Virus record (IMG/VR): IMGVR_UViG_3300007540_000074
Span: 1 to 28,670 of that record
Strand: one strand, 5' to 3'
Source of the DNA: a virus
Length of the DNA: 28,670 nucleotides
The translations under genes were made by a program, and so were the position numbers. Under the pieces are notes generated by a model. The model was not told the DNA's origin. It made no database searches and saw only the letters and a program-made list of their open reading frames with translations. The first letter of the stretch is position 1; each line of letters begins with the position of its first letter. Of this stretch, positions 22,394 to 28,670 are shown in pieces.

Positions 22394-23374
22394 ATGGCGA
22401 TAATGGCAGCATTGGCAATAGGAGGAGCTATCGCCGGGGGTATAAAAGCCTTTTCTGGTTTTAAAGATAAAAAAAAGGCTAAGGCAAAGCAAAAGGCAGC
22501 TGAAGCAGGATTAAAAAACGCTCAAAACGCGCTTAAAGCGGTTGACACTTCTAATCCTTTTAAAAACGCTAGCAATGCTTACGCCGACATGGAAAATCAA
22601 ATGGCGGGTCTTAAAAACGTTTACGAAGATCAGGTAAATGTTTATGCCGACATGGAGAACAAAATGGAGGGGCAAGAAAACAGAATGGAAGGATTGAAAA
22701 ATGCTTTTGAAGGTGTTGATAATGCTATGGAAGATCTTACTGTTAACACGCAGCAGGCGGAGTTTGAAGCCCAACAAAACCAACAAATGCAAGCAAACAT
22801 TATGTCGAGTATGGGTGCAGCTGCTGGTGGTTCTGGTATTGCAGCTTTAGCGCAGTCTATGGCTAATCAAGGGGCTTTACAAGCTCAAAAAGCATCAGCA
22901 TCTATTGGTGCTCAAGAAGCTGCTAACACAAAAGCCGCTGCCGAAGCACAGCAAGAAATTGATATGACAGCCGCTGGTGAAGATCAAAAATTACAAATGG
23001 CAGAAGCATCTGAAGCTAGTAGATTAGACACTGCCTCTCGTGAAGCTGATATGATGATACAGCAAACACAAATGAGCGCCGAAGAAAGAATGCAAGCTGC
23101 TGAGCTTGGTGAAGCTGCGTCACTACAAATGGCGGAAGCCACTGAACAATCTAGACTAGATACCCTGGAAGCACAAGGAGAAATGGAGGTTCAGAAATTA
23201 AAAGGTGAAGGCGCTATGTGGAGTGCTGAAGCTGAAATGCAAAAACAATCAACACTGATGGATTCTTATGCGCAACAAGCTGGTATGGCAGCAAAAGAAA
23301 AAGCTGCTGGAGATAAAAAAGGATGGGGTGGAATTTCTGGCGCTCTTAGTTCTTTGGGTGGACTTGGTAAATAA
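22394..23374 (+). CDS. Glycine-rich/coiled-coil internal virion (ejection) protein
   Basis: 326 residues. The N-terminus AIMAALAIGGAIAGGIKAFSG is a glycine-zipper-like hydrophobic helix able to insert in a membrane; it is followed by a Lys/Ala-rich helix. Residues 61-115 contain imperfect repeats (NAYADMENQM and NVYADMENKM, 21 residues apart), then MEDLTVNTQQAEFEAQQNQQ and the Gly/Ala-rich AAAGGSGIAALAQSMANQGA, a combination I remember from internal proteins of marine Bacteroidota phages. Residues about 175-295 form a long Ala/Glu/Gln/Met coiled coil with two copies of LQMAEAxExSRLDT 44 residues apart. Probable role: an ejected protein that helps carry DNA through the envelope. It starts at ATG 22394, after a 71-nt AT-rich gap. 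Confidence 0.76.
   Translation: MAIMAALAIGGAIAGGIKAFSGFKDKKKAKAKQKAAEAGLKNAQNALKAVDTSNPFKNASNAYADMENQMAGLKNVYEDQVNVYADMENKMEGQENRMEGLKNAFEGVDNAMEDLTVNTQQAEFEAQQNQQMQANIMSSMGAAAGGSGIAALAQSMANQGALQAQKASASIGAQEAANTKAAAEAQQEIDMTAAGEDQKLQMAEASEASRLDTASREADMMIQQTQMSAEERMQAAELGEAASLQMAEATEQSRLDTLEAQGEMEVQKLKGEGAMWSAEAEMQKQSTLMDSYAQQAGMAAKEKAAGDKKGWGGISGALSSLGGLGK
22574..22741 (+). repeat. 21-residue tandem repeats in the internal virion protein
   Basis: N(A/V)YADMEN(Q/K)M is encoded at 22574 and again at 22637, exactly 63 nt apart. The DNA is TACGCCGACATGGAAAAT against TATGCCGACATGGAGAAC. Looser MEGLKN / MEDLTV units continue to about 22741. Confidence 0.8.
22991..23164 (+). repeat. 44-residue periodic coiled-coil repeat
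   Basis: LQMAEASEASRLDT (bases 22991-23032, residues 200-213) and LQMAEATEQSRLDT (23123-23164, residues 244-257) are 132 nt apart. The DNA differs mostly at silent sites, so the protein pattern is being preserved. A 44-residue period equals four 11-residue hendecads, as in some right-handed coiled coils. Confidence 0.75.
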
Positions 23375-23387
23375 TAAAAATATAAAT

Positions 23388-24782
23388 ATGAAAAAAATAA
23401 AATCATCACCTTTAAAACAGATGGAAACAGGAGCTATGGGAAAAAACCCCCAAGAGCACTTAAATAAAATGAAACAACAAACCGAAGACGGGTTAGCTAT
23501 AATTGGAGAGGGCGCTAAAAGACTTGCATGGAAAGACATGCAAATTAATATTAGAGCAATTGAGCCAATGAGCATGCAGTTGAGAAAAGCTAAAGACCAA
23601 ATTCTTAGAAAAAAAGATAGAGAACTATTTGACGATCTTGAACAACCTGAGTTGTCACCTGCGTATGCTAAAATATTTAAAATTGTATTAGATAAATACA
23701 AACAAGAACTTTTCGAAGCATTAAATAGTGAAGACAAAGAACAAGAGGGAGTTGTAAAAACAAAAATGGCAGCGTTTAAACAAGAGGCTGCCGCTATCAA
23801 AGAGTGTATAGCAGAATTTCGCGAAGATCATTTTGACTCAGAGTCATTATTATCTAAAGGAGTTTCAGCACAACAAGTTAGTTTTGCTACTCAAATGTAT
23901 TGTGAAAATCCAGATTTAAAAATTGCAAACGCTACTAGTCAAGATGTTGAAAATGGTTACACCGATTGGTTTGGAGTGCCAGTTATTGAAGATAAACTAT
24001 ACGCTTTTATATATGATTTTAGAGGTGTTCAAGTTATGATGAATATTTTAGATGGCAACAAAGATATGTTTATAAGAAACAATTTAAAAGCTTCTGAATA
24101 TATTAACTTTTTAAATAAAATGCATGAAGACGCTTTAAAAGCTTCTGGCGCTAAAGCTGCTCACAAAATAGATTTAGGGCGTATTAACTATCAAATAGAC
24201 AGTATGTTTGGTTATGGTGATGGTACAGCTAGTACAGAACAAAATGAATTAGTTATGATGTTTGCACATGACAGCGAGGTATTGAGAGATGGTAGTAGTT
24301 TTAGACGTCATTTATATGAACACCCAAGTATAAAAGATTTAAATTACGGAGGGTTTGACTGGAATAGTTTAAACGAAATAGCACCATTAGGACCTGGCGA
24401 TGTAAATTATTGGCATGATAACGTTGATGATATTGATAAGTTAATGTTAGTTGACGCTCTTATTAATGTTGATAATCCATTTTTTGATCTTGAGTTATTA
24501 AGAACATTAGTTAAAGAATACTACACTACTAAACTAGAAAATGCATGGTGGAAAGGCATGGGCTACAAAGAGGGCAAACTAGAATTAATGAGATTAAAAA
24601 GAGACAAACTTAACAAAGCTAGATTTGAAAAAGAAAAAACAGACGCTGCTAAAAATGGTATGTTAGAATTTTTATTTGATGGCAAGATGTATCCAACAGG
24701 TATGACACCAGAGAAAGTTAAAAAGCAAGAACAAGAAACTAAAGAAGCTACTGAAAAAGCTAATCCAGCGTTAAACAAATAA
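23388..24782 (+). CDS. Probable internal virion protein with N-terminal SPLK tag
   Basis: 464 residues from ATG 23388; the frame is open further upstream to 23268, but that part overlaps the preceding gene, and the AAAAATATAAAT leader fits starting here. The N-terminus MKKIKSSPLKQMETGAMGKN shares the 'SPLK' element with the next gene. The body is helical (REDHFDSESLLSKGVSAQQV; VKEYYTTKLENAWWKGMGYK) and ends in a charged Lys/Glu helix. No enzyme motif is seen. The protein LENAWWKGMGYKEGKLELMR segment looks familiar from marine phage virion proteins, but no function comes with it. Its place between a membrane-active coiled-coil protein and a giant protease-like protein suggests it is part of the ejected complex. 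Confidence 0.68.
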   Translation: MKKIKSSPLKQMETGAMGKNPQEHLNKMKQQTEDGLAIIGEGAKRLAWKDMQINIRAIEPMSMQLRKAKDQILRKKDRELFDDLEQPELSPAYAKIFKIVLDKYKQELFEALNSEDKEQEGVVKTKMAAFKQEAAAIKECIAEFREDHFDSESLLSKGVSAQQVSFATQMYCENPDLKIANATSQDVENGYTDWFGVPVIEDKLYAFIYDFRGVQVMMNILDGNKDMFIRNNLKASEYINFLNKMHEDALKASGAKAAHKIDLGRINYQIDSMFGYGDGTASTEQNELVMMFAHDSEVLRDGSSFRRHLYEHPSIKDLNYGGFDWNSLNEIAPLGPGDVNYWHDNVDDIDKLMLVDALINVDNPFFDLELLRTLVKEYYTTKLENAWWKGMGYKEGKLELMRLKRDKLNKARFEKEKTDAAKNGMLEFLFDGKMYPTGMTPEKVKKQEQETKEATEKANPALNK

Positions 24783-24783
24783 T

Positions 24784-27700
24784 ATGTTGAAAAAACCATC
24801 TCCATTAAAACATAAGGAACAAATTCCTGAAAGACAAGGCGCACATGCTACTCTTACTACAGAAGAGCATGAGGCGGTACATGGTGGTAAAATAGATACT
24901 TTGTTTGATTTTGAAGTAGATGTGCTTAAACCAAAGAAAAAAGAAGATAAAGAAAGAGTTAATCAATCTAATACATTTAGATTATTAACAGAGCAAGAAG
25001 AAGAATTGTTTTACCCATCAACTAAAACAGTTGTAGCTAAAGATATTGATGGTAAAGACGTAAAAATACAACAACCTTTAGATTTTACCAAACCAAAACC
25101 TGAGTTTGAAATAGGTGAAGACGGCAAAGTAAAATCAAAAAATGTAGATAAGAAAATCTATTACCAAGCTAATGCAATTCATTGGCAGGGTGATGATTTT
25201 GGAAATTATAAAAGGAAAAATTCTAGATGGTATAAGACTGTAAATGGTAAAGAAGAAGAAGCTTTTGCCGGTGAAACATTGAGTAAAAAAGAGAGGGCTA
25301 AGTTAAATGATTTAAACAAAACTCTTTACACTGGTAAAATTGATTTAACCGATGTAGAAACATGGAAAAACAGGGATGAAAAAACTATAGTAGGTTCAAT
25401 AACAAATTCTAATTTATTTCCAGGAGCTATAGGTGAAGACATTGGCCCTATGGCTAAAATTACATTACCAAACGGTGAGGAGTACACATCTAATCCAGAT
25501 GCTGAAGAAGGCGCAAAATATAAACCAACACAAAACCACGGCTTACCAATAACAGAATTAGGTAAAAAAGTACAAGAGTTCTATAAAAATACAGATAAAG
25601 ATGTTGATCTTTTATCAAGTTTACAGTTTAAAAATAGCAATGAGTTAAGAAGATCATGGGGTCAACTTGGTTATAAGGTTGAAACCACTCCTAATAGTTT
25701 GGCTAAAGGTGGTCAAGACATTGTGTTAAAAGATAAAAATAATAAAGAACTAGCGTCTGGTGATATAAATGATATAAAAAAATATCTTTACAATAACGCT
25801 AGCAAAAAAGATATTTCAAGGTTAAAACAACTATCTATTATAGAAGCTAGAGATAATATTAACGCTGTTAACAAATATAAAAAAAATTTAAATACTGCTA
25901 AGCTACGTGAAGAAGCGGAAAATGATTATTTAGAAAATAAGTTTAAAGCAGAAACAATGCGGACAATTTTAGATAGTCCGTTGCAACAAACAACTATAGA
26001 TGCAATAGATAAGTATTATAACACGAATATGGTTGGTAATGTGGAAACAGGTAAAATGTCCATGTTAAACGGTAAAAGTTTTACTGATTTAAGCTTTATT
26101 ATTGAAACGCTAAGAGCAAGCGATCCCAATCATCCAGATATAGCTATACTTAAAAATTTATTACCAAGACTTAATAAAAACAAAGAAACAGGTATATTAC
26201 AGTCAAAAAACGAAATGATTAATAAGGCTGCTGGCACATATCAAGATCAGTTATATAGAAAAAATAAAGACGCTATTCTTGTGAAAATGGGAACTGAATA
26301 TCTCGAACGTGGAGACGAGGAGGGTAAAGGTGGTACTATAGAAAAAGCTGAAATAAAAGCTGGTGTAGACGAGATGGTTGATAGTTACAGTAAAAATATT
26401 GATAAATATCAAATTGCAATATCCTCTTTAGCCGAGGACGCTAAAAAAGACGGTGTTAACGTGAGCTACCAAGTTGATAATTTTCAAGTAACCGGGGAAG
26501 ATACTGAAAAAGTTAATTTTTATGCAAATAAGTTTTCAGCTTTAAATGACGCTATTAAAGCAACTATAGAAGATTACGCTAATACTAAAGAATATTATGA
26601 TAATCAATATGGCGATTGGAGTAACAAGTATGAAGATGTTTTAACACTACAAGAAAAAACATCAAGAGAAAACAACTTGGGCCGAATGAACATGAGCAAA
26701 CTTAATGATGGTTTTAGAAGCATGGCTTATTCCGCTTTAAGTATTTTTGACGAAGAAAAAGCCATTGCTAAAACAAAGTCAATGCGTGAAGGGCAAGGGT
26801 TTTTAGAAGCGCCACTTGATTATAAAACAGCGATAGAAACTGGACAGAAATTTAGGTTTGCTACTGGTGAATTATCTACACAAGGCGCAAACGTTATTGT
26901 TGCCATTGCTAGTGGTGGCGCTGGTACAGCAATGGGACTTGGAAAAGTTGGTACTTCAATGCTAGTTGGTTACGGTGTTTTTGGTGCTTACTCTGGTACA
27001 CAGAAAGGTATAGACTTAGAAATACAAAGACAAGCTGGGGAAGAAGCTAAAAAAAGATTAGCTGAACTAGAGAAATATAAATTCATGTACACTCCTCAGG
27101 ATTATATGAGAACTAAAATGCAGTTAAACGAGGCTATTGCTTACGGTGATATATCTGATAGTGATAAAAGCAAAGCTATGTTATCTTCTTTTTTGATAGA
27201 GGGTACGGTAATGACGGCTTTAAATAGCTTTGGGTTGGGTACATTGCCAAACTCCATGAATCTTATAAACAAGTTTAAAACTCCTATTTCTAAATTAAAA
27301 GTTTCAAACAAACTATTAAGAAGCGATTTGAGGGCTGCTGGGGATGTAGTTTGGCAGTCTACAAAAGGTGTAGCAGGTGAAGTTTTAGAAGAAACAAGTA
27401 TTGAATCTCTTACGACAGTTGGTGATGGTTTAATACTAGGTAGAGACTTTAGTGATTGGCATGAAAACTTAGACGATGTAGCTGTAACATCGATAATAAC
27501 TTCTGGTGGTATGACCACGCTACCTAATACTTACGCGGCTATAGTTCAGCAAGCTGCAACTTCTGATTTTAGAAAAGATGTTAATAAGTCTCTTAATAAA
27601 ATGGAAGAGATTAAAACAAAGTTTGCAACTTTGGGTGTAAAAGATCCAATGCGTGATATTTACATAGATGAGTTTAAAGCTGAGGTTGAAAAAATAGCTG

Positions 27701-28670
27701 GTGAGCATACTAAACTAGAAGTTGATGCTTTAGCTATGGGTCCTGGTAATGTAAGAAAACTTGTTAAAGCAGCTGTTGAAGAAAACTTTTTAAACCAACA
27801 AGCTGGTGTTACATCAAATGATAACGCCGCTACAATAGATGAAAGAAGAAAAGCATATATAGAATCATTAAGTCCAGAAAAAGCAAAAGACTATCAAGAT
27901 AGACTAGACGCTATTAAAAACCAAAAAAATAAAATCATAGAAAATATAGACTATGATAACGTTGCTGAAAAAGTATTTGGTGAAAGAGGTAAGTACTGGG
28001 AAAGAAAACTAAAAGACAACGCTGAATATAAAAACGCGGATAAAAGAGGTAAGCTAGCTTTAATATTAGAAAGAATAAGAGCAACTAAAATTAGAAGCAA
28101 CGTTAAAAAAGCTAAAAGTAATCCTTGGGTTGAGACAGAAGTATTAGAACAAACTCTTCATATAAAAAATAAAAAAGATAGAACTAAGGTGCAAAATGCT
28201 ATGTACCAAGACTACGCTAAGGCACTTTTAGTAAACCAAAGAAACTCTTTAATATTAGCTGAAGAAGGAAGTTTGAGTGCTAAAAACTTAATGGATACAG
28301 GGCAGATCGAAGGTCTTAATATTACCAAGGCAAAAGATATTAACGAAATGATTGACGCTGTTTATTCTAGTGAAACTTTAACAGATGAAGACAAGCAAGG
28401 TATTATTTTTGCCCTAACTAAAGGAGAGGCTAAGGCTGTTATTATAGATAATAAGTATGTTGTTTTAGATAAGAAAGCCGCTAGAGAAAACTTAAATAAT
28501 GGTGATTTACTTCAAGGCACAGTTTTATCACATGAGATAAGTCATTTTGTAGATGATATGTCTTTTAAAACTACAGAAGAAAAAGCAAACTATACTAAAA
28601 ATTTATACTCTTTAATAAGCAAAAATACTCCAGAGCTTCATGATAGAGCTTTAAAACGTGTTAACAATAT
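24784..28670 (+). CDS. Giant internal virion protein with HExxH zinc-peptidase motif (3' end outside window)
   Basis: Open from ATG 24784 to the window end: at least 1295 residues with no stop. It starts 1 nt after the previous TAA. N-terminus MLKKPSPLKHKEQIPERQGA carries the SPLK element also found at the start of the previous gene. Residues about 1-690 are soluble and charged. Residues about 698-745 contain a Gly/Ala-rich hydrophobic stretch (GANVIVAIASGGAGTAMGLG; then LVGYGVFGAYSGTQKG), able to enter a membrane; a second hydrophobic stretch lies near residue 800. Close to the edge, residues 1248-1260 read LSHEISHFVDD: H1250 and H1254 with E1251 form HExxH, a zinc-metallopeptidase signature. 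The third ligand would lie beyond the window. Role inferred: ejected protein that cuts envelope or host protein. The long size fits such giant phage proteins. Confidence 0.78.
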   Translation, partial: MLKKPSPLKHKEQIPERQGAHATLTTEEHEAVHGGKIDTLFDFEVDVLKPKKKEDKERVNQSNTFRLLTEQEEELFYPSTKTVVAKDIDGKDVKIQQPLDFTKPKPEFEIGEDGKVKSKNVDKKIYYQANAIHWQGDDFGNYKRKNSRWYKTVNGKEEEAFAGETLSKKERAKLNDLNKTLYTGKIDLTDVETWKNRDEKTIVGSITNSNLFPGAIGEDIGPMAKITLPNGEEYTSNPDAEEGAKYKPTQNHGLPITELGKKVQEFYKNTDKDVDLLSSLQFKNSNELRRSWGQLGYKVETTPNSLAKGGQDIVLKDKNNKELASGDINDIKKYLYNNASKKDISRLKQLSIIEARDNINAVNKYKKNLNTAKLREEAENDYLENKFKAETMRTILDSPLQQTTIDAIDKYYNTNMVGNVETGKMSMLNGKSFTDLSFIIETLRASDPNHPDIAILKNLLPRLNKNKETGILQSKNEMINKAAGTYQDQLYRKNKDAILVKMGTEYLERGDEEGKGGTIEKAEIKAGVDEMVDSYSKNIDKYQIAISSLAEDAKKDGVNVSYQVDNFQVTGEDTEKVNFYANKFSALNDAIKATIEDYANTKEYYDNQYGDWSNKYEDVLTLQEKTSRENNLGRMNMSKLNDGFRSMAYSALSIFDEEKAIAKTKSMREGQGFLEAPLDYKTAIETGQKFRFATGELSTQGANVIVAIASGGAGTAMGLGKVGTSMLVGYGVFGAYSGTQKGIDLEIQRQAGEEAKKRLAELEKYKFMYTPQDYMRTKMQLNEAIAYGDISDSDKSKAMLSSFLIEGTVMTALNSFGLGTLPNSMNLINKFKTPISKLKVSNKLLRSDLRAAGDVVWQSTKGVAGEVLEETSIESLTTVGDGLILGRDFSDWHENLDDVAVTSIITSGGMTTLPNTYAAIVQQAATSDFRKDVNKSLNKMEEIKTKFATLGVKDPMRDIYIDEFKAEVEKIAGEHTKLEVDALAMGPGNVRKLVKAAVEENFLNQQAGVTSNDNAATIDERRKAYIESLSPEKAKDYQDRLDAIKNQKNKIIENIDYDNVAEKVFGERGKYWERKLKDNAEYKNADKRGKLALILERIRATKIRSNVKKAKSNPWVETEVLEQTLHIKNKKDRTKVQNAMYQDYAKALLVNQRNSLILAEEGSLSAKNLMDTGQIEGLNITKAKDINEMIDAVYSSETLTDEDKQGIIFALTKGEAKAVIIDNKYVVLDKKAARENLNNGDLLQGTVLSHEISHFVDDMSFKTTEEKANYTKNLYSLISKNTPELHDRALKRVNN
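28531..28545 (+). other. HExxH zinc-metallopeptidase motif
   Basis: CAT GAG ATA AGT CAT encodes HEISH, in frame with the giant protein, following a run GTVLS. Hydrophobic residues before the motif and Phe-Val after it fit the active-site helix of zincins. Confidence 0.6.

Follow-up and report, generated by a model that had tools for sequence, protein, structure and literature searches.

Giant ejection proteins are already known as a kind. The phage-type polyvalent proteins with a zincin-like MPTase domain, described by Iyer et al. in 2017 (PMC5512222), are giant multidomain chains encoded among late virion genes. In phage N4, gp52 (150 aa), gp51 (644 aa) and gp50 (3,500 aa) belong to an ejection operon whose largest member, the virion RNA polymerase (vRNAP), contains an HExxH domain (PMC12633501). 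P1 DdrB is cut before packaging, whereas N4 vRNAP is packaged unprocessed despite its MPTase domain, and the region holding that domain is needed for its encapsidation (PMC5512222). Some zincins of conflict systems act as effectors, a role considered possible for polyvalent proteins too (PMC5512222). The crassvirus crAss001 cargo proteins gp45-gp50 are large, packed in the virion and thought to be ejected partly unfolded, and they include RNA-polymerase-associated proteins (PMC10172136). A cultured counterpart is the Elemovirus giant (NC_055853 gp18, 3,694 aa), annotated as a "structural protein"; no usable literature on Elemovirus proteomics was found.

We analyzed a giant open reading frame (ORF) at the end of a 28,670-base IMG/VR virus record, the whole of which is called the window here. 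Its product resembles the polyvalent proteins in being a giant multidomain chain among late virion genes, with an HExxH zincin, a later Glu-bearing helix (seen in relatives) and a match resembling LPD14, and the first-pass annotation was right to place it with the large polyvalent proteins that carry peptidase domains. It differs from them in that it matched none of the models of their named MPTase families, and in the domain order of its relatives (LPD14-like, zincin, sigma-like, HAD-like, cysteine-rich tail); the main text of PMC5512222 does not contain the word sigma. It resembles N4 gp50 in size (about 3,200-3,500 aa), in coming third and last among the ejection genes that follow the head genes, and in holding an HExxH zincin within the chain (PMC12633501). 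Unlike gp50, its full-length relatives had no RNA polymerase domain that we could find. The Elemovirus giant occupies the same place in a related late region and likewise has a zincin motif (HEIFH) and a hydrophobic Gly-rich segment, but it lacks the N-terminal SPLK tag described below and gave no tblastn match to the window protein. The crAss001 cargo is likened to the window protein by description. The kind of protein is known; the branch and the domain order of its relatives are new, the novel parts being the sigma-like domain and the SPLK tag.

The phage fragment and its three-gene cluster

The window is a 28.7-kb phage fragment that ends inside the giant gene. Its genes share one orientation. 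First come the terminase large subunit (truncated), the portal, a 397-aa unnamed protein and a head protein; more virion structural proteins, large proteins of tail type and two of internal type follow, and the giant ORF closes the series, on the same strand among the late virion genes of a portal-terminase phage. No tRNA genes were found in the window. Along its whole length the portal shares 39-50% identity with those of a Manatee Spring podovirus, Maribacter phage Panino and Elemovirus, and Cellulophaga phages match it likewise; the host is therefore probably a flavobacterium. The phage is probably a marine, short-tailed phage of flavobacterial type. The cluster at the end of the window consists of the following genes.

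22394..23374, + strand: 326-aa Ala/Gln-rich internal protein, first of the cluster; order conserved in L002, L009, L010, L011, L020 and L021
23388..24782, + strand: 464-aa internal protein, second of the cluster, with an N-terminal SPLKQ tag (alignment A2 of five homologues)
24784..28670, + strand: giant ORF, residues 1-1295; ATG start, no stop before the contig end (codons 24784-28668)

The first-pass annotation had reported an open frame of at least 1295 residues at 24784 next to two internal virion-like genes, with a Gly-rich hydrophobic stretch at residues 698-745 and HEISH at residues 1250-1254. All of this was borne out: the frame opens with ATG and has no stop before the contig ends, the stretch holds 12 Gly in 48 residues, and HEISH is encoded at nucleotides 28531-28545. 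Both internal-protein genes also lie directly 5' of the giant ORF in those IMG/VR relatives that extend there. Alignment of the five homologues places the start of the 464-aa gene at 23388, not 23268. The order of 326-aa protein, 464-aa protein and giant parallels N4 gp52, gp51 and gp50. A search through the 464-aa protein found no relatives in bacterial genomes.

In five relatives the first two internal proteins are fused in a single frame (L002:7477-9999, L009:1577-4153, L010:8074-10629, L020:8876-11380 and L021:8873-11410). The joining stretch contains SD[KE]RLKENI, which is reminiscent of the self-cleaving tail chaperones of the Peptidase_S74 type; the window lacks it and has two separate genes.

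A close relative of the giant, L002 from IMG/VR, is 79% identical to it; identity is 62% at the N terminus and climbs to 97% within the zincin. Further IMG/VR relatives (L009, L010, L011, L020, L031, L033, L035, L036, L038, L063 and L067) were reached by way of the adjacent internal proteins and of the zincin region. Full-length giants were read in L028 (3,179 aa), L033 (3,386 aa), L038 (3,342 aa) and L036 (2,337 aa); L028 is a longer piece of the L020 contig, with four codons unread. Giants at the equivalent place measure 3,694 aa in Elemovirus and 3,859 aa in the Manatee phage, and a shorter 1,829 aa in Panino. Judging from the full-length relative L028:93-9629, the window ORF is the N-terminal part of a protein of an estimated 3,200 residues or so. 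The giant of L067 (L067:5992-14005) is seemingly split into frames of 962 and at least 1,680 residues, neither with HExxH, either by fission or by an assembly error. The window protein had no significant match in Pfam or PHROGs. Against 50,697 phage records, tblastn returned no match for the giant, for the later domains of its relatives or for the 464-aa protein.

A probable zincin domain around HEISH

The part of the candidate zincin that lies in the window, and its motif, are as follows.

28174..28668, + strand: zincin metallopeptidase domain, in-window part, residues 1131-1295 (alignment A11, L002 model, dN/dS 0.034)
28531..28545, + strand: HEISH, putative zinc-binding and catalytic motif, residues 1250-1254, with Asp three residues on (HEISHFVD)

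Asp at this place is also found in one widespread phage clade of polyvalent proteins (PMC5512222). HExxH was kept in 10 of the 12 relatives checked (L002, L009, L010, L020, L031, L033, L035, L036, L038 and L063), so a zincin reading is not refuted on the point of conservation; the exceptions were L011, with HDGLH, and L067, whose split frames lack it. Panino's shorter protein, encoded at the equivalent place in its genome, likewise has no HExxH. The predicted protease is therefore not universal among the relatives (L011, L067, Panino).

Because the window record ends within the gene, the third zinc ligand and the later domains can be read only in relatives; the helix expected to bear the ligand falls past the contig end. 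In the relatives, a downstream motif, [DE]E-x5-[DE], lies approximately 60-95 residues past HExxH, and its Glu is invariant in 10 of 10 full rows of alignment A6, L011 included. This Glu, which falls on a following helix (residues 186-201 of the L002 model), is the expected third zinc ligand, as judged from the alignment. The zincin is also the best-conserved part of the protein, with dN/dS between the window and L002 of 0.034 compared to 0.226 for the whole protein.

More distant comparisons were made by profile. Window-type and sister-type zincins matched with a score of 35, and 40 column-shuffled controls scored 23 or less; hhalign E-values refer to single pairs and were trusted only against such shuffled controls. 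The HEIFH region of Elemovirus matched the sister-type profile (E 9e-6). Similarity to the N4 zincin was weak (E 0.035 with the sister profile, the best of all N4 windows; none with the window-type profile). A profile search of the zincin domain against PDB sequences found nothing.

An AlphaFold (AF2) model of L002 residues 1109-1374 (ma3d6e688fb2e; pLDDT 67, pTM 0.62), whose zincin is 97% identical to that of the window, predicted a strand, helices, a beta hairpin, a helix with HEISH (114-130) and a later helix with E191 (186-201). This order, predicted at moderate confidence, equals the core order described for polyvalent-protein MPTases (PMC5512222). An earlier model had begun behind strand 1 of the zincin and folded poorly there; the second included the strand. 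Foldseek against the PDB gave a best E of 1.9 for the L002 model, to an unrelated chain, and listed no zincin for either model; such an absence does not exclude a zincin fold. VIA-align placed the zincin-fold domain of anthrax lethal factor second, as a weak match (Z 3.7, rmsd 5.6, 158 aligned), and the best match in a viral structure library was the Elemovirus "structural protein" (E 0.12, probability 0.60).

Taken together, the motif, the Glu, the predicted topology and the low dN/dS make a zincin domain around HEISH well supported, with no strong match to a solved structure, and zinc binding and proteolysis would be its likely activities. HEISH could instead be a chance motif in a helical structural protein, a reading to which the lack of a significant zincin match by Foldseek would lend itself. 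We consider this extremely improbable: only 0.011 HExxH motifs are expected from the giant's own composition, and conservation, the third-ligand Glu, predicted topology and dN/dS all speak against it. Alternatively, the fold could be kept for structure or encapsidation, with proteolysis absent or unimportant. The unprocessed packaging of N4 vRNAP, the need for its MPTase region in encapsidation (PMC5512222), the HDGLH of L011 and the lack of HExxH in L067 are in keeping with such a role. However, HExxH and the third-ligand Glu are kept among zincins with only about 15-20% mutual identity, which structure alone would not demand, and we regard this scenario as quite unlikely.

N-terminal tag, membrane-type module and later domains

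In the full-length relative of 3,179 residues, the order is SPLKH tag, hydrophobic LPD14-like module, zincin, and then the later part, with a domain that in sister proteins resembles sigma-70 region 2, an HAD-like domain and a cysteine-rich tail. The window holds the first two of these in full.

24799..24816, + strand: N-terminal SPLKHK tag, residues 6-11 of the giant (alignment A3; M-[LF]-K-K-x-SPLKH in close relatives, SPLK in divergent ones)
26854..27588, + strand: hydrophobic Gly-rich module, residues 691-935, with segments near 704, 803 and 903 (hydropathy in the window protein and 14 others)
27364..27540, + strand: LPD14-like stretch (large polyvalent protein-associated domain 14), residues 861-919 (PF18827, below the curated cut-off)

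The giant opens with MLKKP-SPLKHK, the 464-aa protein with MKKIKS-SPLKQ, and the tag is fixed while the residues that follow diverge. SPLK was also present in giants of L035, L038 and L021; those of L036 and L063 lacked it. In the 464-aa protein the tag lies at 23406-23420, with further tag loci in L009, L010, L011, L020, L035 and L038. Scanning IMG/VR for M-K-x4-S-P-[LF]-K-Q gave 40 loci, 12 of which opened frames of at least 200 codons: eight were the 464-aa protein and four a 270-aa late protein near the terminase in related phages (L052, L054, L055 and L078). A small late protein of the same phage family, at L078:9514-10062, has repeated SPAKMYGGKKGDES units.

SPLK[HQ] is a possible packaging signal. 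Its occurrence on the giant, the 464-aa protein and the 270-aa protein of the phage family is also what a common cleavage or targeting signal would look like, and the zincin could then act in trans as a prohead maturation protease that cuts other virion proteins, for example at the shared tags. The tag is not on the head proteins of the window, though, and L063 and L036 keep HExxH in untagged giants, so that a maturation protease seems very unlikely to us.

The Gly-rich stretch belongs to a conserved module that overlaps the LPD14-like match. The most hydrophobic 19-mer of the stretch (residues 704-722) averages 1.43 on the Kyte-Doolittle scale, short of what is usually required of a transmembrane helix; L002 reaches 1.74 there, and more hydrophobic segments come near 803 and 903. 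The module recurs ahead of the zincin in most relatives. PF18827 was the only match in the window record and a weak one (13.7 bits against a cut-off of 27; E 9e-4 for one genome), and in the sister protein L038 LPD14 reached 29 bits at the corresponding place, against the same cut-off of 27.

Behind the zincin, and thus outside the window, one further feature was located in sister proteins.

L038 residues 1664-1776: sigma-70 region 2-like domain, with a counterpart at the corresponding place in L036, L035 and L010

In these four proteins hhalign aligned the domain to sigma-factor region 2 of E. coli. Its score of 30-33 was the highest among 116 windows taken from the same protein; reversed, it scored 13, and none of 60 shuffles exceeded 18. 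The window-type domain behind the zincin showed no sigma-like similarity by hhalign. Pfam Sigma70_r2 matched L031, a window-type protein, weakly (E 0.15), and six sigma-factor entries (Z 2.3-3.0) were among the weak matches of the first structure model. A profile search of the sigma-like domain against PDB sequences found nothing, nor did we find usable literature on sigma domains in virions.

Further downstream lie an HAD-like domain with the motif DFD[DE]T..TARP and then conserved C-terminal segments; the cysteine-rich tail of the full-length relatives is DUF5763-like. One chain therefore carries several unrelated domains, LPD14-like and zincin in the window, with HAD-like and a DUF5763-like tail in addition in L028. 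A zeta-toxin/AAA_33 kinase is inserted in the HAD-like domain of L035 (L035:8779-9930, E about 1e-8), and kinase and HAD may form a polynucleotide-kinase-like pair carried in the virion. An N4-like, T7-like RNA polymerase domain was considered and rejected, as no RNA polymerase family was among the Pfam or PHROGs matches of L028, L033, L036 and L038.

Proposed processing of the giant and its meaning for phage entry

Our preferred reading, held with moderate confidence and drawn from sequence, model and analogy, is that the giant is an ejection protein of the phage-type polyvalent kind, and that its zincin most likely serves to process the giant's own chain. As the largest of three ejection proteins, with approximately 3,200 residues, it would enter the prohead, perhaps by the SPLK tag that it shares with the neighbouring internal protein, and would leave ahead of or with the DNA. 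Its hydrophobic LPD14-like module would touch the inner membrane, and the zincin, lying between this membrane-type module and domains bound for the cytoplasm (sigma-like, HAD-like and C-terminal), would most likely cut the giant or its copies, in the capsid or after ejection, freeing the downstream domains.

Three features speak for an ejected polyvalent protein: its position in the gene cluster, its membrane-type module and the order of its domains. The first-pass suggestion of an ejected giant thus holds for its position as the last member of a three-gene internal and ejection-protein cluster and for its kinship with the large polyvalent proteins of phages; packaging and ejection themselves we infer partly by analogy. 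Self-processing is favoured because of P1 DdrB, the multidomain layout and the position of the zincin between the membrane-type module and the later domains, and caution is called for because N4 vRNAP stays unprocessed.

The zincin could also be an effector that, after ejection, cuts host proteins such as envelope, cytoskeletal or defence proteins; an attack of this sort on cell-wall or defence proteins was proposed in the first-pass annotation. Some conflict-system zincins act so, such a role is listed as possible for polyvalent proteins (PMC5512222), and the downstream HAD-like domain and, in L035, the kinase hint at a role inside the host. However, we see no sign of a host target; the zincin lies mid-chain, and in DdrB, the best precedent from experiment, it is the protein's own chain that is processed. 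We therefore regard an effector role as unlikely. The cell-wall and defence proteins named at first as targets were without support. The phage's own proteins were named with them, and processing of the giant itself is what the precedents favour (PMC5512222).

Few parts of phage entry are as poorly understood as the giant ejected proteins, and what their metalloproteases do is unsettled, with P1 DdrB cut and N4 vRNAP not. In the branch described here, a well-conserved candidate zincin belongs to a defined cluster of three putative ejection genes, and related giants occur in Flavobacterium phages that can be cultured (Elemovirus); self-processing versus host targeting is therefore testable in the Elemovirus relatives. 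The N-terminal SPLK tag is a candidate packaging signal that can be tested. The sigma-like domain behind the zincin in sister proteins, if real, would be a way to seize host transcription at entry. We tentatively suggest, as an unlikely possibility, that a giant loaded by its SPLK tag uses the built-in zincin to free a sigma-like domain that redirects host RNA polymerase, together with an end-repair-like HAD and, in one relative, a kinase. If true, the virion would bring along a kit for transcription and counter-defence in one protein that has no polymerase of its own.
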